Virus record (IMG/VR): IMGVR_UViG_3300037434_000061
Span: 1 to 22,024 of that record
DNA: 22,024 nucleotides
Source: a virus
Direction: 5' to 3' (one strand)
Position 1 is the first letter of the stretch. Each line of letters starts with the position of its first letter. The position numbers were made by a program, and so were the translations under genes. The notes under the pieces are model-generated. The model had not been told where the DNA came from, did no database searches, and worked only from the letters and a program-made list of their open reading frames with translations. Positions 780-22,024 of this stretch are shown piece by piece.

Positions 780-1145
780 ATGAGATATTCGCAGCATTTG
801 GTTTTGCCCAATGACCCTCATCCTCAGAGTCTAGCCGCTCTAGTTCTTCTGACCAAGAAACTTGCCCCTAAACCTATAGGATACAAGATCTGGTTAAGAT
901 ATCGTAAGTGGTTCATAAAACAACATCTAAAGCAGCACAAAGAACTTCGTTGCTACTACTGCAACAAAGGCTCTCTTAAGAAACAAACTAACGTAACAGC
1001 GCAATTAGCAACTCTAGATCACATCCATCCTACATCAAAAGGTGGAGCAAAGTTTAGTTCCGCTAACATAGTTATTGCATGCTCGCCATGTAATGGATGC
1101 AAAGCTGACAAGGATTTGAACGAGTTCTTAAAACCGATCGTATAA
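780..1145 (+). CDS. Small HNH endonuclease (121 aa)
   Basis: The HNH fold is recognisable in the C-terminal half. Zinc ligands are CYYC (58-61) and CSPC (101-104). The catalytic DH pair is Asp80-His81, followed by the K-G-G turn and Asn96, then a CN..K end (104-108). Residues 1-55 are basic and rich in R/K/W and may bind DNA. No RuvC motifs or clear PLMP motif of IscB are present, so this is not a full IscB. It could be a free-standing homing endonuclease, or a minimal HNH-only relative (IshB-like) partnered with the RNA just upstream. The ATG at 780 is the first possible start, because an in-frame TAA lies at 768-770. There is no Shine-Dalgarno, only a TATAAT box at 766-771, so the message may be leaderless. 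The gene interrupts the spacing between the RNA and the replication operon and looks like a mobile passenger. Confidence 0.85.
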   Translation: MRYSQHLVLPNDPHPQSLAALVLLTKKLAPKPIGYKIWLRYRKWFIKQHLKQHKELRCYYCNKGSLKKQTNVTAQLATLDHIHPTSKGGAKFSSANIVIACSPCNGCKADKDLNEFLKPIV

Positions 1146-4401: not shown

Positions 4402-6993
4402 TTATTGCCAATATTCCGTAACAACAACGACACCAGATCCACCGGCACCACCAACTTGCGCTGTACCGCCACCTTGAGCAGCTCCTGCGGTACCACCGGC
4501 ACCTACGGCGTAAGAGTATGTTGCAGAAGGAGATTCGATTATGGCTTCTGCGTAACCGCCAGATCCACCGCCTTGACCAGCACAAAATCCACCAGTACCA
4601 GTAGAGCTTCCTCCACCAGATCCACCACCACCAGTATTAGCTGAACCAGCAAATCCTGCTGTAGCGTTGGCTCCTTGGCCTCCACCACCAAAATATCCGT
4701 TTCCTCCGCAACCAGCGCACCCGTAAATGTTTGCATTGGCCACTAGAGTACCACCACCACCACCGCCACCAGTAAGAGCATATACTAAGATTGCAGGAGA
4801 ACTAACAGAGGCAGTACCGCCGCTGGCACCTTGAGCATAGCCAGCTCCGCCACCACCGTTAGCACTTAACACAGAACCGAAGGTACTATTTCCACCGGTA
4901 CCTGCTAAGGTGTTCGCACCAGAATTTGCTCCACCAGATCCACCACCACCACCACCTATTGCTGCGACGCGGATATAAAGAGGCGCACGCGCAGTAGTGT
5001 ATGTGAACGTGGTTCCACTACCAGTAGAGAATGTCATTGTTCCACTAGAAGTAGGAGCTCCCGTACTAGTTACTAAAACTGAAGAAGCACTAGTTACAGA
5101 ATTTACCACTGTAAATGTTTGACCATTGTTGGTAAACGTAGATCCAGCGGTAGCTGTAATTGTTGTACCAGCAGTCAAATAATAACTAACACCATAAGTA
5201 CCAGAACCAGAAGTAAAAGGTCGAACATTTGGTTGTAAGAAAGAAGAGTTCGCTAAGTTAGCCGGATTAACTAAACCGGTAATCTGCGTCGCTGTACCAA
5301 CAGAACCGTTGGCATAGTATTCAGTTACTTCAATATAACCAGAACCACCAGTACCACCAGTAAATCCAGATGTACCAGCTGTACCGCCGCCACCACCATT
5401 ACCAATTGTGTAACTATATGATGCTGCAGGAGCTACTATGAATGCTTCAACATATCCACCTGATCCACCGCCGTTACCACCGATCACGCTTGCAACAGCT
5501 CCACCACCCGCACCAGCACCACCGCCTCCGGTATTTGCTAATCCGTTACCGCCGTTACCTTGATAACCTGTAGGTCCTGCTCCAGCGAAGAATGGAGCGT
5601 TACCGCCGTAACCACCAGATAATCCTAGAGATCCACCAGTTTCTCCACTTGGGAATGAACCGCCTTGTTCACCGATAATTGTTGTACCGAAAGCTGGACT
5701 ATTGATCGTTGCAGATCCACCAGCTCCACCGTTACCGCCACCGGCGTTACCGCCTTGACCAGCACCAGCTGTTAATAGAGAAGAGCCGAATGTTGTGCTA
5801 GAACTACCGGCACTACCTGCTCCATAACCGGAACCAACTGTACCAGATCCAGATCCACCACCACCTGCACCAACCATTCTTACACGAATGTAAGAAACGT
5901 TAGCTGGAGTTGTATATGAACTAGTTCCTGCTGTTGTAAATTTTTGAATTGTAGGAGTATATGCTCCGCCGCCGACTGCACCAGCTGCTGCTGATGTTGG
6001 TGCGTAGTATTCAGTTACTTCAATATAACCAGAACCACCGGCTCCGCCGGTAAAACCTGAAGTTCCTGCTGTACCACCAGTACCAGCTGTACCAACCGAG
6101 TAAGAATATGAAGCCGCTGGACTATTGATGATTGCATCAATGTATCCACCACCGCCTCCACCTGGCCCAAAATAACTTCCAGTGGTAACACCCGCGCCTG
6201 CGCCGCCTCCACCCGCACCAGAATTCGCTACCGCAGCATTACCGCCAGAGTTACCTGGGCCGCCGCCGCCTCCACCTGATAATGGGGTTGCAGCACCTTG
6301 TCCACCAGCTGCGAAACCATTTGCTACATTTATTACTCCACCACCTTGACCAAATCCGCCTTGAATTGCTTCACCGATTGGTCCTGAGCCTAAAGATGCC
6401 GTACCACCAGTTCCACCTGCAGCTTGAAATTGACCAAATGCTCCGCCGTTAGCGACTAGGAGAGATGTACCGAAAGTGGTATTACCACCCGCACTACCGT
6501 TAGATGAACCTGTTGTTCCCGATCCAGCTCCACCACCACCTCCACCAATCATCTTTACTTTAATAAAGAGAACGTTAGCAGGAGTTGTATAGGTTCCAGA
6601 ACCTGATAAGAATTTTTGAACTGTAGGAGCGTAAGGTCCTGCGCCACCTGAAGAAGAAGAAAGAACTGCCCATGTACCTGCTGCAGTACCATTCGTTTGT
6701 AGAGTTATGAACAATGAAGCGTGTGATGCAATGTTACTATAATTTGAACCTGAAGCATCGGTAAATGCCGTAGCGCCATTGAACTGTAAAGTAAGAGCTC
6801 CAGTTGATTGATTGAAGAACTCAAACTTTTGCCCAACTGACATCGTAGTTGCATCTGGCAACACGATTGTTTGAGTTGTAGACCCTGTGAATACTTGTAA
6901 TTGTTTAGAGGTATTAACTAGTGTAGTTGTGCCTGCTGCTGTTGCGGTTGCTGCTAGTTGTTCTACTAACCCGCCATACTGAAACGAAGCCAT
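4402..6993 (-). CDS. Glycine-rich three-module tail protein, probable adhesin (863 aa)
   Basis: Residues 1-120 are a T/S/Q-rich beta domain (a TTTLVNTSKQLQVFTGSTTQ-type strand repeat) that probably attaches to a fibre. Three homologous glycine-rich modules follow at about 121-330, 344-560 and 590-863. Each opens with an SGSGTYTTPAN-type motif and an I-x-V strand, runs through poly-glycine patches, and closes with GGSGYIEVTEYY or a variant. Poly-glycine stretches of this kind form packed polyglycine-II helices in phage adhesins such as gp38 of phage S16, where variable loops bind the receptor. Module 3 carries an extra inserted domain of about 65 residues (601-665) and two cysteines (CAGC, 759-762) absent from modules 1 and 2. 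The ATG has AAGGAG upstream, and that Shine-Dalgarno overlaps the stop of the GIY-YIG gene. Receptor binding is inferred from composition and position. Confidence 0.82.
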   Translation of the reverse strand: MASFQYGGLVEQLAATATAAGTTTLVNTSKQLQVFTGSTTQTIVLPDATTMSVGQKFEFFNQSTGALTLQFNGATAFTDASGSNYSNIASHASLFITLQTNGTAAGTWAVLSSSSGGAGPYAPTVQKFLSGSGTYTTPANVLFIKVKMIGGGGGGAGSGTTGSSNGSAGGNTTFGTSLLVANGGAFGQFQAAGGTGGTASLGSGPIGEAIQGGFGQGGGVINVANGFAAGGQGAATPLSGGGGGGPGNSGGNAAVANSGAGGGGAGAGVTTGSYFGPGGGGGGYIDAIINSPAASYSYSVGTAGTGGTAGTSGFTGGAGGSGYIEVTEYYAPTSAAAGAVGGGAYTPTIQKFTTAGTSSYTTPANVSYIRVRMVGAGGGGSGSGTVGSGYGAGSAGSSSTTFGSSLLTAGAGQGGNAGGGNGGAGGSATINSPAFGTTIIGEQGGSFPSGETGGSLGLSGGYGGNAPFFAGAGPTGYQGNGGNGLANTGGGGAGAGGGAVASVIGGNGGGSGGYVEAFIVAPAASYSYTIGNGGGGGTAGTSGFTGGTGGSGYIEVTEYYANGSVGTATQITGLVNPANLANSSFLQPNVRPFTSGSGTYGVSYYLTAGTTITATAGSTFTNNGQTFTVVNSVTSASSVLVTSTGAPTSSGTMTFSTGSGTTFTYTTARAPLYIRVAAIGGGGGGSGGANSGANTLAGTGGNSTFGSVLSANGGGGAGYAQGASGGTASVSSPAILVYALTGGGGGGGTLVANANIYGCAGCGGNGYFGGGGQGANATAGFAGSANTGGGGSGGGSSTGTGGFCAGQGGGSGGYAEAIIESPSATYSYAVGAGGTAGAAQGGGTAQVGGAGGSGVVVVTEYWQ
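4405..5226 (-). repeat. Glycine-rich module 3 of the adhesin, with inserted domain
   Basis: This third module (residues about 590-863) has its SGSGTY opening separated from the TTARAPLYIRV strand by a T/S/N-rich insert (4999-5193). It ends in a divergent VVVVTEYWQ. Confidence 0.7.
5314..5964 (-). repeat. Glycine-rich module 2 of the adhesin
   Basis: This second module (residues about 344-560) has the same opening and closing motifs as module 1. The shared 35-base identity (5315-5349 with 6005-6039) shows recent duplication or gene conversion at the module ends. Confidence 0.75.
6004..6633 (-). repeat. Glycine-rich module 1 of the adhesin
   Basis: This is the first of three homologous modules (residues about 121-330). 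The closing motif is GGSGYIEVTEYY. The stretch 6005-6039 (35 bases) is identical to 5315-5349 at the end of module 2. Confidence 0.75.
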
Positions 6994-7002
6994 GTGATCT
7001 CC

Positions 7003-7542
7003 TTATAGGTATTTAAACCTAAATCCTTTTGTGTTGCTGAATTCATTTTTGCAAACTCTCGGTATTGCTGATGGATCTAAATCCAATTCAATAGCCGCTT
7101 TTCTTGCAGAAACGTATTCAACGTTATTATTTAGGCAAAGCACTCTTTTTGCTTTACCAGAAGTTTTGCCCCAATTGGGGTGATTTTCTTTGTTAGAAAG
7201 AAGTATTTTTCTAGACCTTGATTTCTTTTTCTTTGTTTCTTCTGAATCAAGTCTATTTTGTCCACCGGACATTAAATTGTAACCGTTAGGAAACAATGAA
7301 CCTAGCTGTTCTATATGTAACTCTTCTTTTTTATTTAGTTCTTCTATTGAAGAGGCGTTATCAATCTCTTCAAATGTAAAATTGTCAAACCCGTATTTGG
7401 CCATAGCATTGTAGATAGGCAAATTATTAGTTCTATTTCCTGCGCAGTATTTATGTGATGCAATACGCTCATGCAGATCTCTAGTGGTTTGACCCACATA
7501 GACCTTATCATTGATTGTATTTGTTATCTTATAAATTACCAT
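7003..7542 (-). CDS. Free-standing GIY-YIG homing endonuclease with NUMOD DNA-binding modules (179 aa)
   Basis: The N-terminal nuclease domain shows the GIY-YIG signature as VIYKITN (2-8) and VYVGQT (14-19). The likely catalytic Arg26 lies in LHERIASH and Glu74 in EELHIEQL, as in I-TevI. A lysine-rich linker (103-111) leads to a NUMOD3-type HPNWGK (121-126). A NUMOD1/IENR1-type helix-turn-helix segment follows (about 134-176: RVLCLNNNVEYVSARKAA and on to GFRFKYL). This is the layout of Seg-type and I-TevI-type mobile endonucleases. It cuts an allele lacking the insertion and spreads by repair. It sits between two tail-fibre genes with no intron around it, so it is an intergenic homing gene. 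The start ATG has AAGGA overlapping the stop codon of the upstream fibre gene. Confidence 0.92.
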   Translation of the reverse strand: MVIYKITNTINDKVYVGQTTRDLHERIASHKYCAGNRTNNLPIYNAMAKYGFDNFTFEEIDNASSIEELNKKEELHIEQLGSLFPNGYNLMSGGQNRLDSEETKKKKSRSRKILLSNKENHPNWGKTSGKAKRVLCLNNNVEYVSARKAAIELDLDPSAIPRVCKNEFSNTKGFRFKYL

Positions 7543-10948: not shown

Positions 10949-11392
10949 TTAGTTATATTGTATTACGAGAATGTCGCCAGAAACTAGGGCTGAGACCCCA
11001 CCCACTGCGAGACTATTAATAAAAGTAAGTTGAGCGCCCGAAATTGTGTAATCTACGCCATATGATTGCATAGGTCCACCTATAACGGTTAGAATGGTAT
11101 CAGCCGGTACATCCGGGGCAGAACTTAAAGTTACGAAACCATTAGATATATCAGTAGGTGAAAGAGTGAACTCATTCACAAGATATGAACTACTGCCCCC
11201 CATATCTGCCCAGGTAGTTCCATTAAAGAAACGAACTGTGTTAGATACTGAGTTATAGTACATGTCTCCAGCTATAGCCGATACTGGGTCAGTAGTTGAA
11301 TTAGGTAAAGTAACGGCAGTCCCATTAACGAATACGACCCCGTTGAGGAAGGCTACTTTACTTGCAAAATTTAAAATATTTGGTCCTGCCAT
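10949..11392 (-). CDS. Small tail-fibre-type protein (147 aa)
   Basis: The start is set at ATG 11392. An in-frame TTG four codons upstream coincides with the GGAG ribosome-binding site, so it is not the start. The protein has the 'GDMYYNSVSNTVRFFNGTTW' fibre element at about 42-61. Its C-terminal domain (NEFTLSPTDISNGFV... to VSGDILVIQYN) is homologous to the C-terminus of the 564-aa fibre protein. The Shine-Dalgarno overlaps the stop of the upstream 1411-aa gene, so translation is coupled. It could be a small fibre or a fibre cap. Confidence 0.8.
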   Translation of the reverse strand: MAGPNILNFASKVAFLNGVVFVNGTAVTLPNSTTDPVSAIAGDMYYNSVSNTVRFFNGTTWADMGGSSSYLVNEFTLSPTDISNGFVTLSSAPDVPADTILTVIGGPMQSYGVDYTISGAQLTFINSLAVGGVSALVSGDILVIQYN

Positions 11393-11394
11393 AT

Positions 11395-14300
11395 TTAACT
11401 CCAAGTCCTCATGGAGTATTTAAATGTTCCGTTAAATCCAGTACTTGCAGATGTATATGTTATCACAACATTTGATCCAACAATCTCTGCTCCCAGTGTT
11501 ACGTTTGTAGAACCGGTCTCTGTAAAGTCATCACTCTCACTTGTTATCGTTGTGTTATTAGCTACTAGTAGACGACCTGTTCTGTTATCGCCATCTCTAA
11601 CTATAGAGTATTCAATTACAGCGTTTGCGTTCGTTGAAGCAGTGTATGAGAACAATGCCGCAGGGGAAGAAGTATTGTCTACGATAGTTATAGGTACACT
11701 TAATATGCTCTGTTGAAGTCCATTTAAGTTAATGAGTCCATTTGCAGAATCGATTAGGAAATTGCTGTTCCCGTCTAAGATGCCGCCATTGTTAAATTGT
11801 ATAGATTCATTTGGACCACCAGCTGCAGCACTGCTGCCGCCTCCACTGTAGCTAGGAACGCCACCTGGACCGCCTGCTGAGTTTGACCACCTACGGATCA
11901 TGAATTTCATTGTAGCGTAAGAGCCAGTAGAGGTTGTAGTGTAAAGAAGACTAAATACTCCTGATACTATCTCACCAGTAAAGCTTGTTCCACTGTTGTT
12001 AATGTAGGCACCGCCCTGTGCTACTTCAACGTTAACGCCATCAGTAGTTACATATAGTGTGCCAGTATCTCTCGCTGTTCCTCTAATGATAGAGAAATCA
12101 ATGATCATATTCTCGCTGCCGGTATAGTTAAAGCTACTTACTACACCATTAGTAGTGTTGTCATTTAAAGTACTTGTCAATAAGCTAGATTGTTCAAAAT
12201 AGTCAGTTCCATTGAAGTACCTAACGAAACTATTAAAGCCCCAAGTTGTACCGTTAAATATACCAACTTGATCTGCGAAACTGTTACCATTTTTGACTAT
12301 AACTGTATCTGCCTTACTTGGATTAGGTAAGCCGTTAAACAGCAACTGTTGTGTCCATCCTGTGATGAGGGTACCAGTTCCATTGGCCATGTAGATTTCG
12401 TTGTTTCCAGAACCTAAGTTAGAAAACAATACCGTATCACCGGCTTGAACGTCGAAACCATCTTCTACTACTGGATTTCCAGTTGGAAGAGTGGTGCTGA
12501 TAGGATCATAGTAAGTAACTGCTATTAGAGATGATCCGCCTGGAACTAGAGGTATAGCGCCTATAACTTCTGCACCGTTCCATAGGTAGACATTATCGTC
12601 TCCAAGTCTACTTGCGATAATGATAACATTTTCATCAATTGGCACATTAGCATTATTAGCAACAACTATAGAAGGCGTGTTAGCGGCATTTCTGTTTATT
12701 ACAACGTATGCAGATTGATTTGTTAATAGTGATATTCCGGGTGAACCAGAAGGTAAACTGATTACTGAGTTACCAGGAGATCCTGGTTGTAAGATCGTTA
12801 ATGTGCTGCTCGCTGGTAAGAAAGTGAGTTGCTGTGCGCTACCGCTTGTAGTATTAACCGCAGTCGAAGCATTACATAGATACTTAACAGTTTTATCTTG
12901 CGCTTTGTCTGCCATCATCGCAGTGAGTTTCGCACTACGGATTGTTAAATTATCGGTTATAGAAGAGTTATAATTTGCTAGGTTCCAAAGAGTGTTATAT
13001 GGACCAGTGAAGTAATCAGGATATGTCTCTGCAAGAGAGCTCATGCCTATGAATCTTTGAATGTTATCAGAGTCACCTTCACCGATGTCGATAGTTTCAC
13101 CTTGAACAACCTTAGTGATACCTTCTTCAGAACGAACGTCAAGGCGAGCTAATGTTGCTGTACCAGCTGATTCAGGAGCAGGAGGTCCAACAGATGTTCC
13201 TAATGTAATTGCAGATGCTGCACTGATAGTGACTGCACCATTAAGAGCAATCAAGCTACCGTTTACCGAACCACCATCTATTGTTACGCTGGCGTGAGCA
13301 ATCAAAGTTCCTTCGAAGGTACCGGTTCCACTAACATTTAATGTTGCAGAAGAACCGATAGCCCAATATAGATTTGATGCTAATGCTCCACCTGTAAACG
13401 CAATAGTTGGAGTTCCACCGGCGCCAGTAGTTAAGGTAGAAGCAGTTTGTATTACGAAGATATCAGTCGCACTACCGTTGAAGGTCAATGTACCGTTTGT
13501 AGAAGTCGCTAATGAAGCTGAACCAGAACTAAATTTATAAACACCTGCACTAAGAGTTTGACCGTCAAGAGATGAAGGAATTATGGTTGCTGTACGTGTA
13601 GATAGATCAGTGTAAGCTGCTGTGGCATCAATCTCAGCTTGCATTGCCGCAGGGTTTGCAATATTCTCTGTGCCGGAAACTGTCCCTGGTGGAAAACCAG
13701 TAACAGAGGTTCCAGGATACAAACCAAGATTTCCGGTGATTACACTTGAACCTACGTTGGTGATTGTTGAGTTAGCTAAAACTGCATAGCTTGCAGCTGT
13801 TGCCATAACTGGACTTCCTGCTGGTGGACTAGGAGGTACTAGCCCAGCAATTGGAAATTGAAATTGAGTTGGAGATCTATAGTTGATTACGTACTCGCCG
13901 TTAAAGTTTGTAGTTCCACCGATGATGATGGTTTCACCAGACTCGAACCCGTTATTAGCAGATTCAGTTGCTGTAGCCACTGTAGTACATAATCCGTAGT
14001 AACCAGTAAAAGATCCTGTAGCAGTGTCCGTTGTATTAAAGAAGAATGTGTTGGCGTCGATGACTTCAACTGTATATGTTCCTGCTTGTCCCACAGGGGC
14101 AGTTACAGTGATACGATCTCCATCTATTAAACCATGTCCTGTTGCAATAACTTCTGCAACTGTTCCAGTTGGAGAAGCAGCTGAACCATCGGTTACGGTT
14201 AATGTACCAGAAACGGTAACAGCACTTATGCTTCCGATTCCCTCGATCGTATCGCTACGTAGAACTAACCAAAGGAAGTTTCCACCGGCTTCAGCGATAG

Positions 14301-15630
14301 CTGGATTAGATCTAGCTTGAATCTGTATGTCGCTTATTGGATAGATACCTTGATTAAATGTAGCTAATGTTACCGAAGTTAATCCTTGATAAGCTCCGCT
14401 TAGTAATACTGATTTAGCGTTGGCTGCAGTAGTAACAGAGCCAGTACCATTTGTACCACTATAGAATTGTTCAACCTGTAATGTATAGTTGCTTGGATCG
14501 CCTACTGCACTAACCCAATCACCGGCACTTAACTCTGAAAAGAATCCAATAGATCCGTTAGGAGTATTGAGATAAGTGGATCCGTTAGTCCATAGAATTG
14601 CTTCATTGAGAGAGTTAACAGGTTGTGTATTTGCTAATGAGATATACCCAACATATTCATCAGGAATGTCGATAGTTCCTGCTTGAATAGTGATATCTTG
14701 CGGTGAGTTTGTGCTCTTGATTACTAGATTTTCAGTGAGTGTTAATTCACCTGGAACAGAAGAACTGTGTTTATACTTTCCTTTAGAGTAGAAAGTTATA
14801 TTGAGATCGTTGAATAAATTTATTAAGCTAAAGGTAGAGTTATCTTCGTACCAGTATTGCGAACCGCCAAGGTTGGCAAGCTGCGTCATTACCGCGTCCA
14901 TCCACTCTTTCATTGAGGTGAGATTCTTGTCGCCACCTTGAAATGGATTTGGTCCTGATGAGGAAGTAAGGGTGATTGGGGTTTCCATCTGCTCGTATTG
15001 AGCACTTGGTAAAGCTGGCCATTGAAATCTATTAGCAGGATTAGGATCGATACCGCCGGTACCGAGACGGAACATCATCGGTCTTGCGTCTTCAATACTT
15101 GTGATAACTGAAGGACCAACCTTTATGATTGCGACTGGAACTGTATTATCTGGGAATGAACCTGTTGATACGTTGACTTGAACTTGAATTACTGATTCAG
15201 TGTTTACTTCCTGAGTGAACTCGCCGCCGGTATCTCCGTTAGCGTTTGGATCCCAGAAAGCTCTTGTATCCGCTGCAGCACCTATAGTTGTAAAAACAAG
15301 GTAGACATAATTTGTAGCGTTTTTAATTAATGCAGGAACTAATGGTTGAGCGTTAGGATCTCCGACTGGTAGACCATAGTAAAATGATCCCGCAGCAGAG
15401 CCTGGGTAGTACATTGCGGAGTCAGCGATATTGATAGCGCAATTTTGAGTTCCAATTGCACTAGCTGGATTAGCAACATCGAAGCCTTTGATAATGTAAG
15501 GAGTGTCCTCACCTACCAAGGTCTCAATGAAGTATTTCCAGTCCCCTGCTGAGTAACTATCGATACTTAGTAAATCAGGGAGATCTAGTCGCTCCGCAGA
15601 GCTAATAAGTAAGCGTCCTAATACAGCCAA
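11395..15630 (-). CDS. Very large baseplate/tail-fibre protein with an embedded ice-binding-type (DUF3494) domain (1411 aa)
   Basis: Residues 1-205 form a baseplate/fibre-attachment domain of the type seen in myoviruses (AFWDPNAN at 124-131; VPVAIIK...ITSIEDARPMMFRLG at 164-190). About 205-470 is beta-rich with no firm family. Residues 470-598 are GHGL-x-DGD-type beta domains. Residues 607-812 are a complete DUF3494 ice-binding domain. Residues 815-1150 contain further beta segments. A tandem pair of 100-residue domains closes the protein at 1152-1249 and 1305-1411, separated by a glycine linker and an ESIQFNNGG fibre element. The start is TTG (15630-15628) with AAGGAG five bases upstream, and an in-frame TAA lies just upstream. 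It follows J-like and I-like genes, which corresponds to the P2 H (tail fibre) position. Confidence 0.82.
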   Translation of the reverse strand: MAVLGRLLISSAERLDLPDLLSIDSYSAGDWKYFIETLVGEDTPYIIKGFDVANPASAIGTQNCAINIADSAMYYPGSAAGSFYYGLPVGDPNAQPLVPALIKNATNYVYLVFTTIGAAADTRAFWDPNANGDTGGEFTQEVNTESVIQVQVNVSTGSFPDNTVPVAIIKVGPSVITSIEDARPMMFRLGTGGIDPNPANRFQWPALPSAQYEQMETPITLTSSSGPNPFQGGDKNLTSMKEWMDAVMTQLANLGGSQYWYEDNSTFSLINLFNDLNITFYSKGKYKHSSSVPGELTLTENLVIKSTNSPQDITIQAGTIDIPDEYVGYISLANTQPVNSLNEAILWTNGSTYLNTPNGSIGFFSELSAGDWVSAVGDPSNYTLQVEQFYSGTNGTGSVTTAANAKSVLLSGAYQGLTSVTLATFNQGIYPISDIQIQARSNPAIAEAGGNFLWLVLRSDTIEGIGSISAVTVSGTLTVTDGSAASPTGTVAEVIATGHGLIDGDRITVTAPVGQAGTYTVEVIDANTFFFNTTDTATGSFTGYYGLCTTVATATESANNGFESGETIIIGGTTNFNGEYVINYRSPTQFQFPIAGLVPPSPPAGSPVMATAASYAVLANSTITNVGSSVITGNLGLYPGTSVTGFPPGTVSGTENIANPAAMQAEIDATAAYTDLSTRTATIIPSSLDGQTLSAGVYKFSSGSASLATSTNGTLTFNGSATDIFVIQTASTLTTGAGGTPTIAFTGGALASNLYWAIGSSATLNVSGTGTFEGTLIAHASVTIDGGSVNGSLIALNGAVTISAASAITLGTSVGPPAPESAGTATLARLDVRSEEGITKVVQGETIDIGEGDSDNIQRFIGMSSLAETYPDYFTGPYNTLWNLANYNSSITDNLTIRSAKLTAMMADKAQDKTVKYLCNASTAVNTTSGSAQQLTFLPASSTLTILQPGSPGNSVISLPSGSPGISLLTNQSAYVVINRNAANTPSIVVANNANVPIDENVIIIASRLGDDNVYLWNGAEVIGAIPLVPGGSSLIAVTYYDPISTTLPTGNPVVEDGFDVQAGDTVLFSNLGSGNNEIYMANGTGTLITGWTQQLLFNGLPNPSKADTVIVKNGNSFADQVGIFNGTTWGFNSFVRYFNGTDYFEQSSLLTSTLNDNTTNGVVSSFNYTGSENMIIDFSIIRGTARDTGTLYVTTDGVNVEVAQGGAYINNSGTSFTGEIVSGVFSLLYTTTSTGSYATMKFMIRRWSNSAGGPGGVPSYSGGGSSAAAGGPNESIQFNNGGILDGNSNFLIDSANGLINLNGLQQSILSVPITIVDNTSSPAALFSYTASTNANAVIEYSIVRDGDNRTGRLLVANNTTITSESDDFTETGSTNVTLGAEIVGSNVVITYTSASTGFNGTFKYSMRTWS
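11398..12177 (-). repeat. Tandem C-terminal domains of the 1411-aa protein
   Basis: Residues 1152-1249 (11884-12177) and 1305-1411 (11398-11718) share the pattern DNT...SF-x-YT...I-(D/E)-(F/Y)-SI-x-R...TG-x-L...EIV...V-x-I-x-YTS-x-STG...K-x-(S/M)-x-R-x-WS. They are homologous domains separated by a Gly-rich linker. Confidence 0.7.
13195..13812 (-). other. DUF3494 / ice-binding-protein domain, copy A (domain within the 1411-aa protein)
   Basis: Residues 607-812 carry the hallmark order of the ice-binding family (Pfam PF11999). These are ASYAVLANSTITNVGSS, VITGNLGLYPGTSVTGFPPG, an IANPAAMQAEI helix start, a SSLDGQTLSAGVYKF strand, TLTFNGSATDIFVIQTASTL, NLYWAIGSSATLN and GSLIALNGAVTIS. The length of about 205 residues equals a whole single domain. 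The flanking linkers are proline-rich (PPSPPAGSP before, GPPAPES after). Domain identity is from family knowledge, and ice binding itself is not shown. Confidence 0.88.
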
Positions 15631-15666
15631 GTTGTCTCCTTAACTTAAATTATACTGCAACATGTC

Positions 15667-18168
15667 TTAATTACTCACTACTGTGTAAGTTGGAAGCACA
15701 CTATAAAGTTGATCTGGGTAACGTACCAAGAAATCTATGAAGATACCAGCACTTGCTACTGATTCTATCAGCTTCTCAAGGGTAACTCTAACGTCCCCTG
15801 GGTTGGTGATATAAGGCGGGTATTCAGTGCCAACTCCACTCATTATGTGTGGGCCCTTGTTGTTAATGGATACTACGCCCGAACCGTTTGCGTGATTGTA
15901 TAGAAAAATGTACGACGGATCTAGGACCAAAGTAGTGCTATTAGGGGCGTACAGGTATCTTACGGGTCCCTCTTGAGTATCAAGTCCATAGTCAAAGACT
16001 ATGAAACCGCCGCTTGACGGTATAGTATTTGAACTTAGGTTTAATAGAGGAATGGTCTTACCGGCCTGAATGCTACCAGTGATTTTAGCAGTATTGTCAG
16101 AGAGTACGAATGGAGCTGCTAGGTCCCATACGTATGGCCCATATATTCTTGTGAAGCTAACAGGTAAGGCAGCAGTGATTACAACCAACGATCCTGATGG
16201 TGCCATGCCTATAGTATCAACTCTAGCTGTTCCAGGTGCAGTCGCTGTACCGCTTAAACCTATACTGTTGTAGGTAAAAGTGTTGTCGGTTACAGAGGTT
16301 ATTACAAAGCTTCCATTTAAATCTTCATTGAACGTGATAGTTTCAGAGCCACTACCTGTTGCATTCTGAGTCATTGTTACTGTACTTCCAACTATACTAT
16401 CTACCAAGGTTCCAAGTGGAATATTTGTTCCCACTATTGTTTCACCTTTAGAAACAGTCCCTAGAGGCGAAACACCGGTGAGAGTAGGAGTTCCAGTGGT
16501 CAATGTTGCTGTAGAGGTTTGACTAAGGACGCCGCTTGCATTATATATAGAAACTATGTCGCCCACTTTATAATCATGATTAGCAGATGTTGTTGCAGTA
16601 ACAACGTCGCCAGATCTAACTAGAGAGGTTAAAGTGTTTTCATCTAGAGTAGCTAATGCCGGTAAATCAGGCGTTATGTTGTTTAAGGTATTTCCAGCGA
16701 ACTGAACTCCAACGTTAATATTACTTGCTGTAGCTGGAAAATCAACTGTAACCGTACTACCTAAAATGTTCGTTATTAAGGCATATGAAGGCACACCAGG
16801 CATAAATACGCCGTTACCAACTTCTAGACCTACTGTTGAACCTACGTTTGTAATCTGGTTACTGCCTACGGTAGTAGTACCGGTAGTTGCTAAAACCAAC
16901 CTATTAGAGTACGTATACTCGATAGGTCTACCTTGAAATCTTGTGTTAAAGGTTGTTAAAGCTAAAGTGTCTTGGGTAGGGGTTATATATCTAGTTTGAA
17001 TTTCTTCAACTTCCTGAAGCCAAAAGGTTCCAGTCATGGGAAACTGAGAGGCGTCGGCAACGGTAATAGAAGTAGGAGAATTGGTTGTAGTAACTAAACT
17101 CTCTGAACCGTTGATGTGAGCAGCACCTATCAAGGATCTCTTAACTACTGGCGGGGTAGCGGGCATCTCAACAATAACTTCACCAGGAGTTACTTCCCAC
17201 GTTACTGCGCGATTGTTCTGCGTATATACTACATACTTGTTTGGCGTAAAGAACTTAGTCTGTGTGTCATCTGTCTGAGTATATGTACCAGGTGTTGCAA
17301 ATAGATTTGTAATAGTGAACGAATTGTTTCCTAAGTTGATACCAGTGATAGGAAAATAACCAGAATTACCTGGTAAAAGAGATATCAAAATATCGCCTAC
17401 CTGCAACATGTTTAGTCCTGGAAGAGTTCCACCTGTATTTTGATAAGTAACTTTCTCACCAACTTTAGTAATAGTCCACTGAGTATTTGATCCGTTGCCG
17501 GCACCAGTTACGAAGCCATTGAATTGAAGGGCTATGTTCGCTCGTCCGCCAACCAGCTGTATAGATCCTTTTGAACCTACTGTGTTGGTGAAGATTTTTA
17601 CATAGAAGTTTTTCGCACCATTGTCGTAGTAGTTTTCGGCAAAGCTATGCTGAGCCTGCCTATTGATAACTGCTGCAACTTCTTGGGCTGTTGCTGCATT
17701 TATATCAGTAAAGTCGGCTGCATTGAAATGTATTAATTCGTCATATATGCCGTCAACAGTGTATTCAAGTTCCCAGCCGCTCTGTAAATTATATGGAGAC
17801 GGTTGTCCTGATTCAACGTAGGCAGTAGTAGTTTCTTTAGCAAAAAAGATATTAAGCAGCTGATCGACGATCAACTTAACTTGCTTAGGTTGATAAGCCA
17901 TTATCGGTATGAATTTTTTAAACGTAGTATCATCCATGCCTACTCCGGCAGGTCTTTGAACTCCGTCATTAGCAGCGAGATTGTCTAGGTATGGTGCGTA
18001 AGCTGTTTTAAGAAAAAACTGCTTCTTTACTTCTACCAACAGGTCAACTATATTATTATCAGATGCGCCAAGAGCGGTAATTAGCGCCAACCAGTTAGGA
18101 TTAGTCCTAGTGTTATAGTGCGCTGGCATCAGATCATGAAGTTGATCGATTTTATCTTGGTTATTCAT
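15667..18168 (-). CDS. P2 gpI-like baseplate/tail protein with large beta insertions (833 aa)
   Basis: The first 80 residues resemble the phage tail protein I family in layout: DQLHDLMPAHY, a helical region, then LKTAYAPYLDNLAANDGVQR (53-72), a dTA...Ld.la...gv.R pattern. Gene order supports this, because it directly follows the baseplate J-like gene. The C-terminal 770-833 (HIMSGVGTEYPPYITNPGD and following) is probably the baseplate-facing part. Between them lie beta domains, one of which (about 519-650) is interrupted by another domain (547-616). At 833 residues it is several times longer than P2 gpI, so the bulk is accessory. The start ATG is one base after the upstream stop and has no Shine-Dalgarno, so it depends on translational coupling. 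Confidence 0.78.
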   Translation of the reverse strand: MNNQDKIDQLHDLMPAHYNTRTNPNWLALITALGASDNNIVDLLVEVKKQFFLKTAYAPYLDNLAANDGVQRPAGVGMDDTTFKKFIPIMAYQPKQVKLIVDQLLNIFFAKETTTAYVESGQPSPYNLQSGWELEYTVDGIYDELIHFNAADFTDINAATAQEVAAVINRQAQHSFAENYYDNGAKNFYVKIFTNTVGSKGSIQLVGGRANIALQFNGFVTGAGNGSNTQWTITKVGEKVTYQNTGGTLPGLNMLQVGDILISLLPGNSGYFPITGINLGNNSFTITNLFATPGTYTQTDDTQTKFFTPNKYVVYTQNNRAVTWEVTPGEVIVEMPATPPVVKRSLIGAAHINGSESLVTTTNSPTSITVADASQFPMTGTFWLQEVEEIQTRYITPTQDTLALTTFNTRFQGRPIEYTYSNRLVLATTGTTTVGSNQITNVGSTVGLEVGNGVFMPGVPSYALITNILGSTVTVDFPATASNINVGVQFAGNTLNNITPDLPALATLDENTLTSLVRSGDVVTATTSANHDYKVGDIVSIYNASGVLSQTSTATLTTGTPTLTGVSPLGTVSKGETIVGTNIPLGTLVDSIVGSTVTMTQNATGSGSETITFNEDLNGSFVITSVTDNTFTYNSIGLSGTATAPGTARVDTIGMAPSGSLVVITAALPVSFTRIYGPYVWDLAAPFVLSDNTAKITGSIQAGKTIPLLNLSSNTIPSSGGFIVFDYGLDTQEGPVRYLYAPNSTTLVLDPSYIFLYNHANGSGVVSINNKGPHIMSGVGTEYPPYITNPGDVRVTLEKLIESVASAGIFIDFLVRYPDQLYSVLPTYTVVSN
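16321..16530 (-). other. Domain nested inside another beta domain of the gpI-like protein
   Basis: The outer domain reads VVTATTSANHDYKVGDIVS (522-540) and resumes at DLNGSFVITSVTDNTFTYN (616-634), halves that normally adjoin. The insert (about 547-616) has a GETIVGTNIPLGTLVDSIVG core. A related element, GNGVFMPGVPSYALITNILG, occurs at 451-470 of the same protein. Confidence 0.6.
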
Positions 18169-18169
18169 A

Positions 18170-21100
18170 TTATGACAAGCTTATGTTGTTAGGGCTTATT
18201 ATTGCTTTCTCGTTACTTGCTAAGGTTATACTTTGTGTACTTGGTACAGGATTAGTGAACACAACCGAAGCAACTCCAGTGATAGGCTGAATGTCAGCTA
18301 TGATCTGTGACATAACAATAGGAGCTCCAACAGCTAAGCCATCAATGTAGTTAATGATAGTAGATTGAATGCTGTTTGAAACATCGCCTAAGTTAACACC
18401 GGCATTTGTGATCACAGTGAGGGCAAGATTAACTTGGAACGGCAATGGAGGCAATGTTTCAATCGCACTTCCTACAGCTCTTTGTCCTGGGAAATCTGCA
18501 GCATCTGGCTCAAAGCCGTCAACTATGCGTTGAACTTTTTGTAGCAACCCTGTATAGTATGTGTATCCATCTGTACCTATTACAACGTTGTTACTGTAAC
18601 CTAACTTACCTAAGTGAGTTATGCTAGAGTTATTTGCAGGAGTGAATTTATAGTCTCTGCTATACGGAGTTATGAATATGTCTCTTAGATTGCTGTTGAC
18701 GCCATCTAATGCTGCATACTTCACTTCTCTTATAGTATAGAACTTATTAGCAAGACTTTCTATTATGTAGAAACCATCTGAACTAACAGATAGGTCACCA
18801 GTGTTTGAAACTACTGCAGCAGAGTTAATAACTCTTAAGAACGGTCTGTAGTTAGATTCTGTACCGTATTCAACGATATTAAAGTTACCTGTATTGTTAA
18901 TATTAAACCAACCTGCTTCAACTATATTCTGTACGAATAGTGTGTCGCCAACTGTTACGGAGTCACCTTCGTAAATAGCAATATCGTTAGCACTATTTAA
19001 GAACACACCTTGATCGTAATCTGTTGATTCTCTATAGATCACGCCCACTGTTGTTTCACTTGTTCCTGCATAGTTACCACCTAAAGTGATTTGAGTAGCT
19101 AGAGCAGGATTAGAGTTATTTAAACTTAAAACTTGTAAGAAATATGTTTCAGGGTCAGCTAGTTTCTTTACCCAATCTCCAACTTGTATATACTTGAATG
19201 CACCAGTAACACCAGTGATGGTATTAGTGTTTGTAGTAAATACTACATCCACACCTTGGTTATTCATTGGTCTCAATGTGTTCAATTGATCTGTACCAGA
19301 TGAATTCAAGAAGATAATAGAGTTGTTATCAACAGCTAATACTCTGAATAGTCCGTTATTGTTAGAAGCAAATGTAGTTCCACTTAAAGATATGTAGTCA
19401 TCTACAGCAACGCCGCAATCCACGAAGCTCGGTGATTGTCCATTTTGACAATTCAATCTCATTAAGTTGTTGAAGCCAAGAGATTGGATTCTATAACGAC
19501 TCTGAGTCAATGTAGACTGAATCAATGAAGCGTATGTAGGAGTTTCAGTGAAATTTGATCCTGATAGAGAGAACGTTAACTGAGTAGGTCCTACGACTGT
19601 AACTGTGTAAACTCCATCTGGTATGTTAGTGCTATCACGTAGGTCAATAGTATCTCCACTATTTAGGAAGTGCGGAGTTGATGTAAACACTGTCACAACG
19701 TTAGATGTACGGCTTAATGTAGCTACTGGGACGTAAGCTGCGTGCGCTAATGTCCATTGGATGATCGGTGTTGGACAGATTTGAACTGTTCCGGCTCCAA
19801 CAGTTGTTGAAGACATAGCAACGCCAAAAGGATTTATAACATCAACATAGTTAGAACCAATGTTTACGGCAACGATTGGAAGACCTGAAACTACTCCATC
19901 GCCAGATGGTTTAGCTAAATTCTGCTGAGACCAACCGGTTGTACCGAATGCATAAAGAAGGTCGCCTGGATTCACTGTAGAGAAATTAATTCCTGAGCCG
20001 GTAGCTGTCCATCTCCAAACGAAACCAGCAGGCCAAGCTGGAGAGTATGTTGATCCTACATCAGTTATAGTGAATGCAGTTCCAGAAACTATACCTACGC
20101 TCTTAGGGTTGTACTCGTATTCAATGGCATTTGTAACAGGGTTTAAGTTTACTGTGGTAATAGTGTCTGATGACTGTAGACGGTTAAGTCTTGCTACTCC
20201 TGCAGTGTTTTCTAATAGAACTGTGTCACCCACGCTGAATGTATCTGGGAAGGCTGGCACCTGAACTGTTAAGTAACTTCCACTTCCGTCTGTTTCAACG
20301 ATAGCTGGAGTTTGAATGTACATCTTTGATTGGTTACCTGTACCACCAAGAACTTCTACTGCACCAGCAGAACCAAGTTGCTTTGATTGTATCTGAACAT
20401 TTTTTCTATCATCAGCAATGTCAACTGTGGCAACGATAGGTAATTGTGAAAGAGCTGGCTGTGTAAACTGATGGTATAAGTTTTGTACAGTTACTGGAAT
20501 GAGTTTGAATAATTCACCGTTAGTCGCTACATTGTAGTTAGGTGCTGTATCCATTGAATATATAGATGGTTGTGCGCCTTGTAGAACGAACGGCATCTTC
20601 ATTGTAAAGTTAGGGTTTGGATTTTCAAATGTCTTAACCCAATTAACGCCGTCGTACATTCCAATGTAACTATTTCCTGGAGTGTATCCATAAGCTAATG
20701 TGGCCGCAGTCTCTTCTTGTGTAGCAAGCGAGATAGTGAGAGCACTATTGCCTACTGGGGTAGCAGACATTAAGGTACTGTTGTTGATCGTGGTAGAGAT
20801 GTTTAAAGTTGAAACACCTGTAAGTGGGAATATGCTTAGACCAACAGGATTGTTTATAACTTCTGGAGTAGCTGATGAACCAGCAACAGATGAAACTGTA
20901 AAGCCAGAGGTTCCAGCGTTTCCAGCAGGAACATTGCCGTTGAAAGTATTTGTAATAGTAACTACATTAGTTGAAACTGCTGGAGTTCCAAATGAAGCGT
21001 CACCTGTTACTGCTGCTTGAATTGCTAAAGCTACTGTGTTTGCACTAGCTCCTGCAGTTAAAGTAGATACTCTGATTGATCTGTATGCTCCATCGTATGG

Positions 21101-22024
21101 CTCCGATATTCCTTGGTTACCAATATCGAACCAGATTGATACTGGACCACCATTGTCGTATATGATGAAATATTTACCAGTCAATGAATCGTTGTTTGTT
21201 CCAGTTTGGCCTACAGGACCACTGTTGCCAGGTTGAGCTACTACGTTAGCTGCTGCACTTAATGTTACAGCACCCGTAAGAGCAATCAAGCTACCGTTCA
21301 CTGTTCCGCCGATTGTGTCGGTAATAGAGGCTTGAGCTATAATGTTACCTTGGAAGGTACCAGCACTACCTGAATTGATGGTGGCTGAAGAGCCAACGAT
21401 CCAGTATACATTTGCTGCTGTAGCTCCGCCAGTTAAGGTGATTGTAGGTATTCCACCGGCACCGGTAACAAGCGTACTAGCGCATTGAAACACGTAGGTT
21501 CCTGCGCCATTTAATGTAAGCGTACCTGGTCCAGACGTCGCCAAGTTAAATGTTCCTATTGTCTCCTTGTATACGCCAGGAGTAAGGGTTTGACCATCTA
21601 AGACTGAACTGATAGAAGTAGCTGACATTGCTGCAAAAGTGTTATATGCTGAAAGCGCTTGCGCTTGTGCCGTAGATGCTGCAGTGTTCGCGATGTTTTC
21701 TGTACCAGAATAAGTTCCAGGTGGGAAACCAGTAATAGAAGTTCCAGGAGATAAGCCGAGGTCTCCAGTAAGAACGCTAAAGCCAGTATTGGTTACAGTT
21801 GATGCACCTAAGATAGCATAAGTAGATGCTGTAGCTAGAGGTCCGCCGCCTGGTGGTGTAATTGAAAATCCAGATGTACCTACGTCAGCGATAGGTAGTA
21901 CACCATTTTGAACGTTTGTGATTAGTAGACCAGATCCACTAACTGTAGCTACGAATGAACTATTTTGATTGATGGCTACTGCGATCTTACCGGCCACAGT
22001 TGTAGCGGTGTCATTAGGTAAGAT
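18170..22024 (-). CDS. Baseplate J-like (gp6-type) protein with embedded ice-binding-type domain; 5' end outside the window
   Basis: The frame is open to the right edge, so the true start lies beyond 22024. A GTG at 21997 is only an internal codon. Residues are numbered from that GTG. Residues 1-48 are the end of a beta repeat closing in GTSGF, and a second copy of the repeat spans about 270-375. Between them, 53-256 is a DUF3494 domain. Residues 380-1100 are mixed beta domains, including an intact NVVTVFTSTPHFLNSGDTID module (766-785). The C-terminal 1120-1275 is the baseplate J-like end: INYIDGLAVGAPIVMSQIIA (1215-1234), DIQPITGVASVVF and a final ITLASNEKAIIS strand. It would form the baseplate wedge or periphery. 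At over 1280 residues it is far longer than T4 gp6 (660) or P2 gpJ (about 300) because of the insertions. Confidence 0.82.
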   Translation of the reverse strand: MLPNDTATTVAGKIAVAINQNSSFVATVSGSGLLITNVQNGVLPIADVGTSGFSITPPGGGPLATASTYAILGASTVTNTGFSVLTGDLGLSPGTSITGFPPGTYSGTENIANTAASTAQAQALSAYNTFAAMSATSISSVLDGQTLTPGVYKETIGTFNLATSGPGTLTLNGAGTYVFQCASTLVTGAGGIPTITLTGGATAANVYWIVGSSATINSGSAGTFQGNIIAQASITDTIGGTVNGSLIALTGAVTLSAAANVVAQPGNSGPVGQTGTNNDSLTGKYFIIYDNGGPVSIWFDIGNQGISEPYDGAYRSIRVSTLTAGASANTVALAIQAAVTGDASFGTPAVSTNVVTITNTFNGNVPAGNAGTSGFTVSSVAGSSATPEVINNPVGLSIFPLTGVSTLNISTTINNSTLMSATPVGNSALTISLATQEETAATLAYGYTPGNSYIGMYDGVNWVKTFENPNPNFTMKMPFVLQGAQPSIYSMDTAPNYNVATNGELFKLIPVTVQNLYHQFTQPALSQLPIVATVDIADDRKNVQIQSKQLGSAGAVEVLGGTGNQSKMYIQTPAIVETDGSGSYLTVQVPAFPDTFSVGDTVLLENTAGVARLNRLQSSDTITTVNLNPVTNAIEYEYNPKSVGIVSGTAFTITDVGSTYSPAWPAGFVWRWTATGSGINFSTVNPGDLLYAFGTTGWSQQNLAKPSGDGVVSGLPIVAVNIGSNYVDVINPFGVAMSSTTVGAGTVQICPTPIIQWTLAHAAYVPVATLSRTSNVVTVFTSTPHFLNSGDTIDLRDSTNIPDGVYTVTVVGPTQLTFSLSGSNFTETPTYASLIQSTLTQSRYRIQSLGFNNLMRLNCQNGQSPSFVDCGVAVDDYISLSGTTFASNNNGLFRVLAVDNNSIIFLNSSGTDQLNTLRPMNNQGVDVVFTTNTNTITGVTGAFKYIQVGDWVKKLADPETYFLQVLSLNNSNPALATQITLGGNYAGTSETTVGVIYRESTDYDQGVFLNSANDIAIYEGDSVTVGDTLFVQNIVEAGWFNINNTGNFNIVEYGTESNYRPFLRVINSAAVVSNTGDLSVSSDGFYIIESLANKFYTIREVKYAALDGVNSNLRDIFITPYSRDYKFTPANNSSITHLGKLGYSNNVVIGTDGYTYYTGLLQKVQRIVDGFEPDAADFPGQRAVGSAIETLPPLPFQVNLALTVITNAGVNLGDVSNSIQSTIINYIDGLAVGAPIVMSQIIADIQPITGVASVVFTNPVPSTQSITLASNEKAIISPNNISLS
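18173..18640 (-). other. Baseplate J-type C-terminal domain
   Basis: This is the final ~155 residues of the J-like protein. The conserved pattern is two alpha/beta halves, the second reading S-x-I-x-STIINYIDGLAVG...QIIADIQPITGVASV, as in the baseplate J family, where it contacts neighbouring wedge subunits. Confidence 0.72.
21230..21841 (-). other. DUF3494 / ice-binding-protein domain, copy B (domain within the baseplate J-like protein)
   Basis: The domain carries ASTYAILGASTVTNTGFS, VLTGDLGLSPGTSITGFPPG, GTENIANTAAS, SSVLDGQTLTPGVYKE, the strand FQCASTLVTGAGG, NVYWIVGSSATIN and GSLIALTGAVTLS, in the order of the ice-binding family. It is a full-length single domain of about 204 residues. 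The preceding linker is TPPGGGP, and a PG/GP-rich stretch follows. Confidence 0.88.

Follow-up and report, generated by a model that had tools for sequence, protein, structure and literature searches.

DUF3494 domains, some circularly permuted, inserted in virion proteins of an Mx1/SPO1-related phage lineage: a possible ice-adhesive cassette

EfcIBP and AnpIBP1a, which we take to be the DUF3494 ice-binding proteins of PDB entries 6eio and 7bwx, respectively, are secreted proteins. Like the domain described here (D1), they have the whole-domain fold of a helix and a three-faced solenoid; they are cellular proteins, whereas the domain studied here has been inserted into proteins of the virion and, in the tail sheath, is permuted. 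Adhesins of the SfIBP_1 type (6bg8), with an ice-binding head on Ig-like stalks, also place a solenoid on an extended surface structure, which in their case is anchored to a cell, whereas here, judging from the genes, the carrier is a phage tail and each virus has several carrier genes. Phage Ig-like domains (such as Hoc; Fraser et al. 2006, cited in PMC10385173) are, according to the available part of the citing source, likewise accessory, present in several virion proteins and variable in occurrence. They have a beta-sandwich fold, unlike the DUF3494 solenoid with its natural circular permutation, and both are likely to bind surfaces. Decoration of the Ig-like or Hoc type was not what we found, as the present domain is a DUF3494 solenoid, which may work similarly.

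Virus genomes with DUF3494 have been described, namely Arctic virus contigs (PMC11515562) and Hyperionvirus. The available part of PMC11515562 offers an auxiliary cryoprotection reading and gives no virion location, whereas the domains reported here lie inside virion proteins; it also assigns the viral PF11999 homologues mostly to S-SKS1. Neither S-SKS1 nor Myxococcus phage Mx1 gave a PF11999 match at E <= 1, a threshold at which the B. subtilis control also matches, below the cut-off. Hyperionvirus was the sole organism with PF11999 matches (E <= 0.001) in BFVD, with three proteins, and no phage was found there. Within the open-licence literature searched, neither the presence of DUF3494 in phage tails or sheaths nor a circular permutation of the domain was found described, and words starting with phage or viral are absent from PMC12337378 and PMC9957290.

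The window, i.e., the whole stretch of DNA analysed, is a virus record of 22,024 bases, in which the tail-type genes lie on the minus strand. In transcription order, a baseplate-J/wedge-like protein that is truncated at the end of the contig (18170..22024) is followed by an 833-aa protein (15667..18168), a 1411-aa protein (11395..15630) and, as far as position 4402, by smaller proteins that are mostly of tail type; genes for a DnaB-type helicase and a Toprim-domain protein lie on the plus strand at the opposite end of the window. Because the 1411-aa ORF itself has no PHROGs match, its label as a tail (fibre/baseplate-region) protein comes from this gene order, in which it stands after the J-like protein and the 833-aa protein. 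The latter contains no domain insert, matches phrog_15814 (E 2.9e-10) and, weakly, the baseplate family phrog_1160 (E 0.0066), and shows 69-71% identity in two relatives, G014 and G039. The TTG start of the 1411-aa ORF fits its homologues, and the domain-free homologues are 1192 and 1200 aa long.

A complete DUF3494 domain between proline-rich linkers had been proposed for the middle of the 1411-aa protein by a first-pass annotation, which also named a PF11999 search and an AlphaFold model as checks. Both checks agree with the proposal. D1, which has the canonical order, lies at 13195..13812 on the minus strand (13216-13782 by profile search), and residues 617-804 of the ORF match PF11999 (Ice_binding) with an E-value of 6.2e-37 and 127.7 bits, compared to a curated cut-off of 28.7 bits. 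The match spans positions 1-204 of the 208 in the profile, and the domain is therefore complete. The translation shows the linkers GLVPPSPPAGS on the N-terminal side (13813..13845, minus strand) and SVGPPAPESAG on the C-terminal side (13162..13194, minus strand). The PF11999 profile search gave 0 matches in 14 control genomes.

The AlphaFold model of D1, built with 15 viral sequences, has a mean pLDDT of 94.1 and a pTM of 0.91 and shows the fold of the family, a three-faced beta-solenoid with a long helix (54-71) alongside the solenoid strands. Foldseek returned 31 PDB matches (E <= 0.001), all of them ice-binding or antifreeze proteins, with 6eio, which is also the closest solved relative of D1 by sequence, at the top (TM 0.89). 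VIA-align superposed D1 on 7bwx with a Z score of 32.0 (194 residues, 37% identity, 1.1 A) and on 6eio with a Z score of 31.8 (197 residues, 44% identity, 1.1 A); the 25 top-ranked entries were all ice-binding proteins (Z 28.2-32.0, 193-198 residues), and the next row had a Z score of 13.4.

A second DUF3494 domain (D2), also in canonical order, was identified at 21251..21814 on the minus strand (PF11999 E 9.6e-37, 127.1 bits, profile positions 1-205 of 208). Its carrier is the partial J-like protein, whose Baseplate_J match is weak (E 3.6e-4; 20.3 bits, slightly below Pfam's 21.1); the full-length copy in an overlapping contig, G001, has 2580 aa and matches the baseplate wedge family phrog_6 with an E-value of 5.7e-30. 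Thus, the single domain reported by the first-pass annotation is real, but D2 was missed, and there are several copies per virus, some of them circularly permuted.

Several other genes of the window are worth recording. Between the tail genes lies a GIY-YIG/NUMOD-type homing endonuclease gene (7003-7542, minus strand; phrog_314 E 9e-34, PF01541), and an HNH endonuclease gene (780-1145, plus strand; PF14279, PF01844) lies close to the replication genes. An 863-aa protein (4402-6993, minus strand) contains three similarly planned long Gly-rich stretches, each preceded by a YTTPANV/YTTARAP-like start; it has a weak match to the tail fibre family phrog_863 and is perhaps a fibre tip. Compared with phages, the helicase gave weak matches (24-29% among the matches listed), and the window DNA had no match in phage records by megablast.

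Two relatives of about 176 kb, G014 and G039, gave no PF11999 match by profile search. Their J protein shows ~70% identity to that of the window before the missing stretch and 66% after it, and their 1411-type protein shows 60-67% identity; in both proteins, the domain is absent between conserved flanks. Their sheaths are 72-73% identical to the 946-aa sheath of G001, measure 734 and 737 aa, and have no insert. Three tail genes hence carry a domain that the same three genes lack in two sisters. Together with the profile, the model and the gene context, the empty sites in these two relatives support the tail location and the tail-borne solenoid of the first-pass annotation.

Contig G001 matches, at its end, positions 11007..22024 of the window at 99.99% identity (11018 bp, one mismatch) and runs beyond the shared stretch to a tail sheath gene with a third, permuted copy; this overlap assigns the sheath copy to the same virus as the window or to a near-identical one. 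The 946-aa protein is a tail sheath by its match to phrog_279 (E 5.7e-26), a family matched by three of the three sheaths given. The model of this sheath, computed for the identical copy in L042 (pLDDT 86.3, pTM 0.63), aligns to the phi812 sheath over 504 residues with a VIA Z score of 34.0. The DUF3494 insert occupies residues ~165-372 with its parts swapped: the stretch that begins with the long helix and ends with the C-terminal coil comes first, and the N-terminal coil follows. Within the insert, residues 171-320 have confidence values of 87-96 and residues 321-360 values of 81-90, with 59 for residues 161-170 and 69-73 for residues 361-380 at its edges; given the pTM of 0.63, it is uncertain how the insert is positioned with respect to the sheath core. 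A sequential structural search with 6eio aligned 151 columns of the sheath model, versus 209 for the canonical domain.

D1 and D2 follow the canonical order of N-part and then C-part; the sheath copy proved to be a permuted member with its C-part before its N-part, an arrangement present in 21 of 80 distinct viral ORFs. Against a doubled reference, the 21 permuted copies gained at least 61 (median 99), whereas 65 canonical viral copies had a median gain of 0 and a maximum of 12. As a control, the tails were shuffled (50 times each), and the real tail beat the best shuffle in all 21 cases, sometimes by less than half the gain. The coil order in a DUF3494 crystal structure is beta1-6-5-4-3-2, as stated in the available part of PMC7966756, and therefore the first coil adjoins the last. 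With these two coils stacked as neighbours, joining the C-part to beta1 would give a continuous solenoid. Among cellular ORFs from the best 80 of 499 loci, 96 domains were paired as canonical, and no permuted copy was seen; four apparent ones read, on inspection, as canonical domains in tandem whose N-part is weak. A further 22 cellular C-parts, in 16 ORFs, had no paired N-part.

The sheath insert was not confined to a single site. In a remoter sheath lineage (L089, L090 and L092), the permuted insert lies in another loop of the accessory region and follows the LRxNGG strand instead of preceding it, so that insertion probably took place more than once. Co-occurrence of the copies was counted on records that are fragments and, through relatedness, non-independent: PF11999 was found in 15 of 80 sheath-found records (best 80 of 83), all 15 being carriers of the sheath copy, with 15 of 36 in one batch and 0 of 44 in the other, where the controls too gave none. 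Four of the 15 domain-bearing sheaths (L042-L045) share one sequence, as judged by identity and length, and L061 was dropped since its sheath ORF is not intact. Extra copies elsewhere were found in six of the eight sheath-positive records of at least 30 kb (G001, G005, G006, G019, G022 and G036), and in the other two (G037 and G038) the carrier genes may lie off the contig. By comparison, 12 sheath-found records of at least 97 kb without a sheath copy (best 80 of 83), six from each batch, gave 0 PF11999 matches. The viral loci fetched for the domain itself were the best 80 of 123, and 39 of these were taken to a record-wide PF11999 search; each of these 39 further records gave one to five matches, with permuted copies often being counted twice.

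The domain also occurs in a protein often encoded near the major capsid gene. The 171-kb relative G006 encodes a 322-aa protein with the domain (E 4e-54) about 600 bases from its major head protein (phrog_752, E 1.4e-40). The N-terminal module of this protein recurs in seven ORFs (six distinct, 322-554 aa), all with DUF3494, a proportion that is biased, since it was through the domain or the sheath that these loci had been retrieved. A major capsid gene lies within ~3 kb in four of the six distinct ORFs, and none was found in the available stretch for the other two. Two of the six contain a permuted copy, and a scan of one of them showed a chitobiase C-terminal domain in addition. We regard these capsid-side proteins of 322-554 aa as presumable virion decorations. 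By tblastn against 50,697 phage records, neither D1, D2 nor the 322-aa protein had a match.

Altogether, the 80 distinct viral ORFs comprise 51 with a single canonical domain, seven with two canonical domains, 21 with a permuted copy (19 sheath and two capsid-side proteins), and one sheath with a C-part only. Another sheath type (L178; phrog_2839, E 2e-27) carries a canonical copy, and six of nine other carriers had no PHROGs match. The tail protein of L312 (G097) has a canonical and a permuted DUF3494 domain side by side (residues 199-386 and 497-697). Two records, L218 and L193 (G119 and G107; 142 and 118 kb), have five and four PF11999 matches in role-unassigned proteins unlike those of the window; these proteins of 804, 684, 816 and 732 aa have the canonical order, and the domain may serve another group of phages in a way of its own. 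The IMG/VR contig L214 encodes a stand-alone 314-aa DUF3494 protein (5911-6855, plus strand) whose start resembles a signal peptide by eye and whose tail is rich in Pro and Ser; its gene may be a true secreted one, of auxiliary type, or a bacterial one.

With regard to kinship, the major capsid protein of G006 is 52% identical to that of Mx1 and 27-28% identical to those of the SPO1 type, and the C-terminal half of the G001 sheath shares 30% identity with the sheath of Mx1. On these protein identities, the domain-bearing lineage is placed among Mx1/SPO1-related contractile-tailed phages. Mx1, from cow dung, is the nearest cultured relative; it gave no PF11999 match and has other sequence in the accessory region of its sheath, whereas the lineage of the window carries DUF3494. 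The Mx1 sheath (L332, 25320-28178) has 953 aa, compared with 716-737 in several insert-free relatives, and its accessory region has no Pfam match; in this group, additional domains may quite generally be docked on the sheath.

A quick tree of 134 domains, with SH-aLRT support only and with every second cellular domain (48 of 96), placed 67 viral rows, including the 21 permuted copies and the two types present in the window, in one group with a support of 96. The J and fibre labels each change nine times on this tree, and therefore copies have moved between genes. The permuted sheath copies require two changes, and two canonical rows lie inside their 23-row cluster, so that the tree does not show one clade of permuted copies, which may nonetheless have a single origin. 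The two 322-aa copies were placed elsewhere, at the end of a long branch among cellular rows, a position that points to more than one uptake of the domain by phages.

D1 has a Thr-x-(Thr/Asn/Asp/Ser) ladder over five coils of one face, a candidate ice-binding face on which 6eio and 7bwx have similar residues by eye. At the ten ladder positions, Thr accounts for 64% of residues (13% elsewhere) in 67 canonical viral rows, namely the 65 copies plus D1 and D2, which duplicate two of them; the values are 65% (12% elsewhere) in the 21 permuted viral copies and 42% (11% elsewhere) in the 96 cellular copies. After removal of copies more than 80% identical, the mean number of Thr among the ten was 6.3 in canonical viral (53), 6.5 in permuted (15) and 4.5 in cellular copies (51), a viral-cellular difference that leans towards the viruses because the positions were picked by eye on D1. 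According to the available part of PMC7966756, the DUF3494 ice-binding site has no repetitive motif, and a flat T-x-T face is therefore non-decisive as an ice test. DUF3494 had also been linked with cold-adapted microbes, but membership of the family does not point to a cold habitat: the record titles of cellular relatives (best 80 of 499 loci) include fen, palsa and Brumimicrobium glaciale, but also sludge, groundwater and roots.

Complete DUF3494 domains have thus been inserted repeatedly, at several sites, in virion proteins of one lineage. We infer that the domain serves this lineage as a virion-display cassette, most likely with ice as the ligand, and regard this reading of display and binding as a matter of even chances. 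Sheath rings contain six subunits, and multivalent display strengthens binding. A virion would show the domain many times, on the six sheath subunits of every ring and in the baseplate and tail copies, and such numbers would allow multivalent binding to an extended, regular surface. Since the modelled copy has retained the fold and most viral copies have retained a Thr ladder, this surface is, in our view, most likely ice. Virions might adhere to grains of ice or to the walls of veins, sites at which hosts gather during freeze-thaw, or might alternatively be shielded from recrystallising ice. Counting against ice are the absence of a required ice-binding motif in DUF3494 proteins, the bacteria from sludge, groundwater and roots that carry the domain, and the nearest cultured relative, Mx1, with its origin in cow dung and its lack of a PF11999 match. 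As for the permutation, fusion of the N-terminal coil to the C-terminal one would make a discontinuous solenoid continuous, so that it could be plugged into a loop; the sheath, the one carrier modelled, still resembles known sheaths despite the insert. The full proposal, which we hold to be plausible at somewhat below an even chance, is that these virions are ice-adhesive, with DUF3494 on the sheath, baseplate and tail and beside the capsid, and that the permutant, perhaps of a single phage origin, is a loop-insertable cassette moved between virion genes.

A serious contender, though one that we consider rather doubtful, is that the domain is a general adhesin, by which virions are reversibly held on host glycans, extracellular matrix, or peat and soil particles, with ice being irrelevant. 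Placement on the sheath, baseplate, tail and probably the capsid side recalls the phage Ig-like domains (as described in the available part of PMC10385173), one capsid-side protein has a chitobiase C-terminal domain, DUF3494 accompanies adhesion domains in bacteria (available part of PMC9957290), and its presence in bacteria of sludge, groundwater and roots supports this reading as well. However, the Thr ladder has been retained in dozens of viral copies, and the modelled canonical copy has the fold of proven ice binders. Moreover, we know of no DUF3494 domain that binds sugar, which counts against a general adhesin. It is improbable that the domain is recombination-prone and spreads for itself with little function, as a structural filler or selfish element. 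The shuffling of copies between genes (nine changes each for the J and fibre labels), the use of two sheath loops, and the coexistence of canonical and permuted copies in one protein (L312) would fit such a domain, but the domain matches are free of internal stop codons, the model is confident, and the ladder is conserved. In addition, the presence of the domain in several genes of one genome and its absence from all three sister genes suggest selection. As to the ligand, ice thus has about an even chance, general adhesion comes next, and a mainly selfish domain is third.

A further reading is that of an auxiliary gene shielding the host from freezing, as given to PF11999 in Arctic viromes in the available part of PMC11515562, where three vOTUs were credited with such a gene; the stand-alone ORF of L214 with its signal-peptide-like start would suit such a role. 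For the present lineage, we consider this highly unlikely, as the copies of the window lie inside J-like and tail proteins and those of its kin inside the sheath; for the window copies themselves, an auxiliary metabolic gene was rejected, both being internal to tail proteins and not free-standing. An assembly chimera or bacterial contamination might come to mind for a 22-kb fragment but is hardly credible: contigs that bear other sample numbers also have this domain in the same two genes, the overlap with G001 is 99.99% identical, and recurrence in many contigs makes a chimera very unlikely.

For the reading of viromes, it follows that the carrier protein of a PF11999 match should be inspected before the match is filed as auxiliary cryoprotection. 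Whatever the ligand, DUF3494 would be a second promiscuous virion-decoration fold besides Ig-like domains, with a natural circular permutant whose topology is simpler than that of the original ice-binding fold, and contractile tails would gain a ready cassette for the display of such domains. If the domains do bind ice, these would be the first viruses known to us to dock their particles to ice, and the ecology of phages in snow, in sea ice and in soils that freeze would gain a physical mechanism open to testing.
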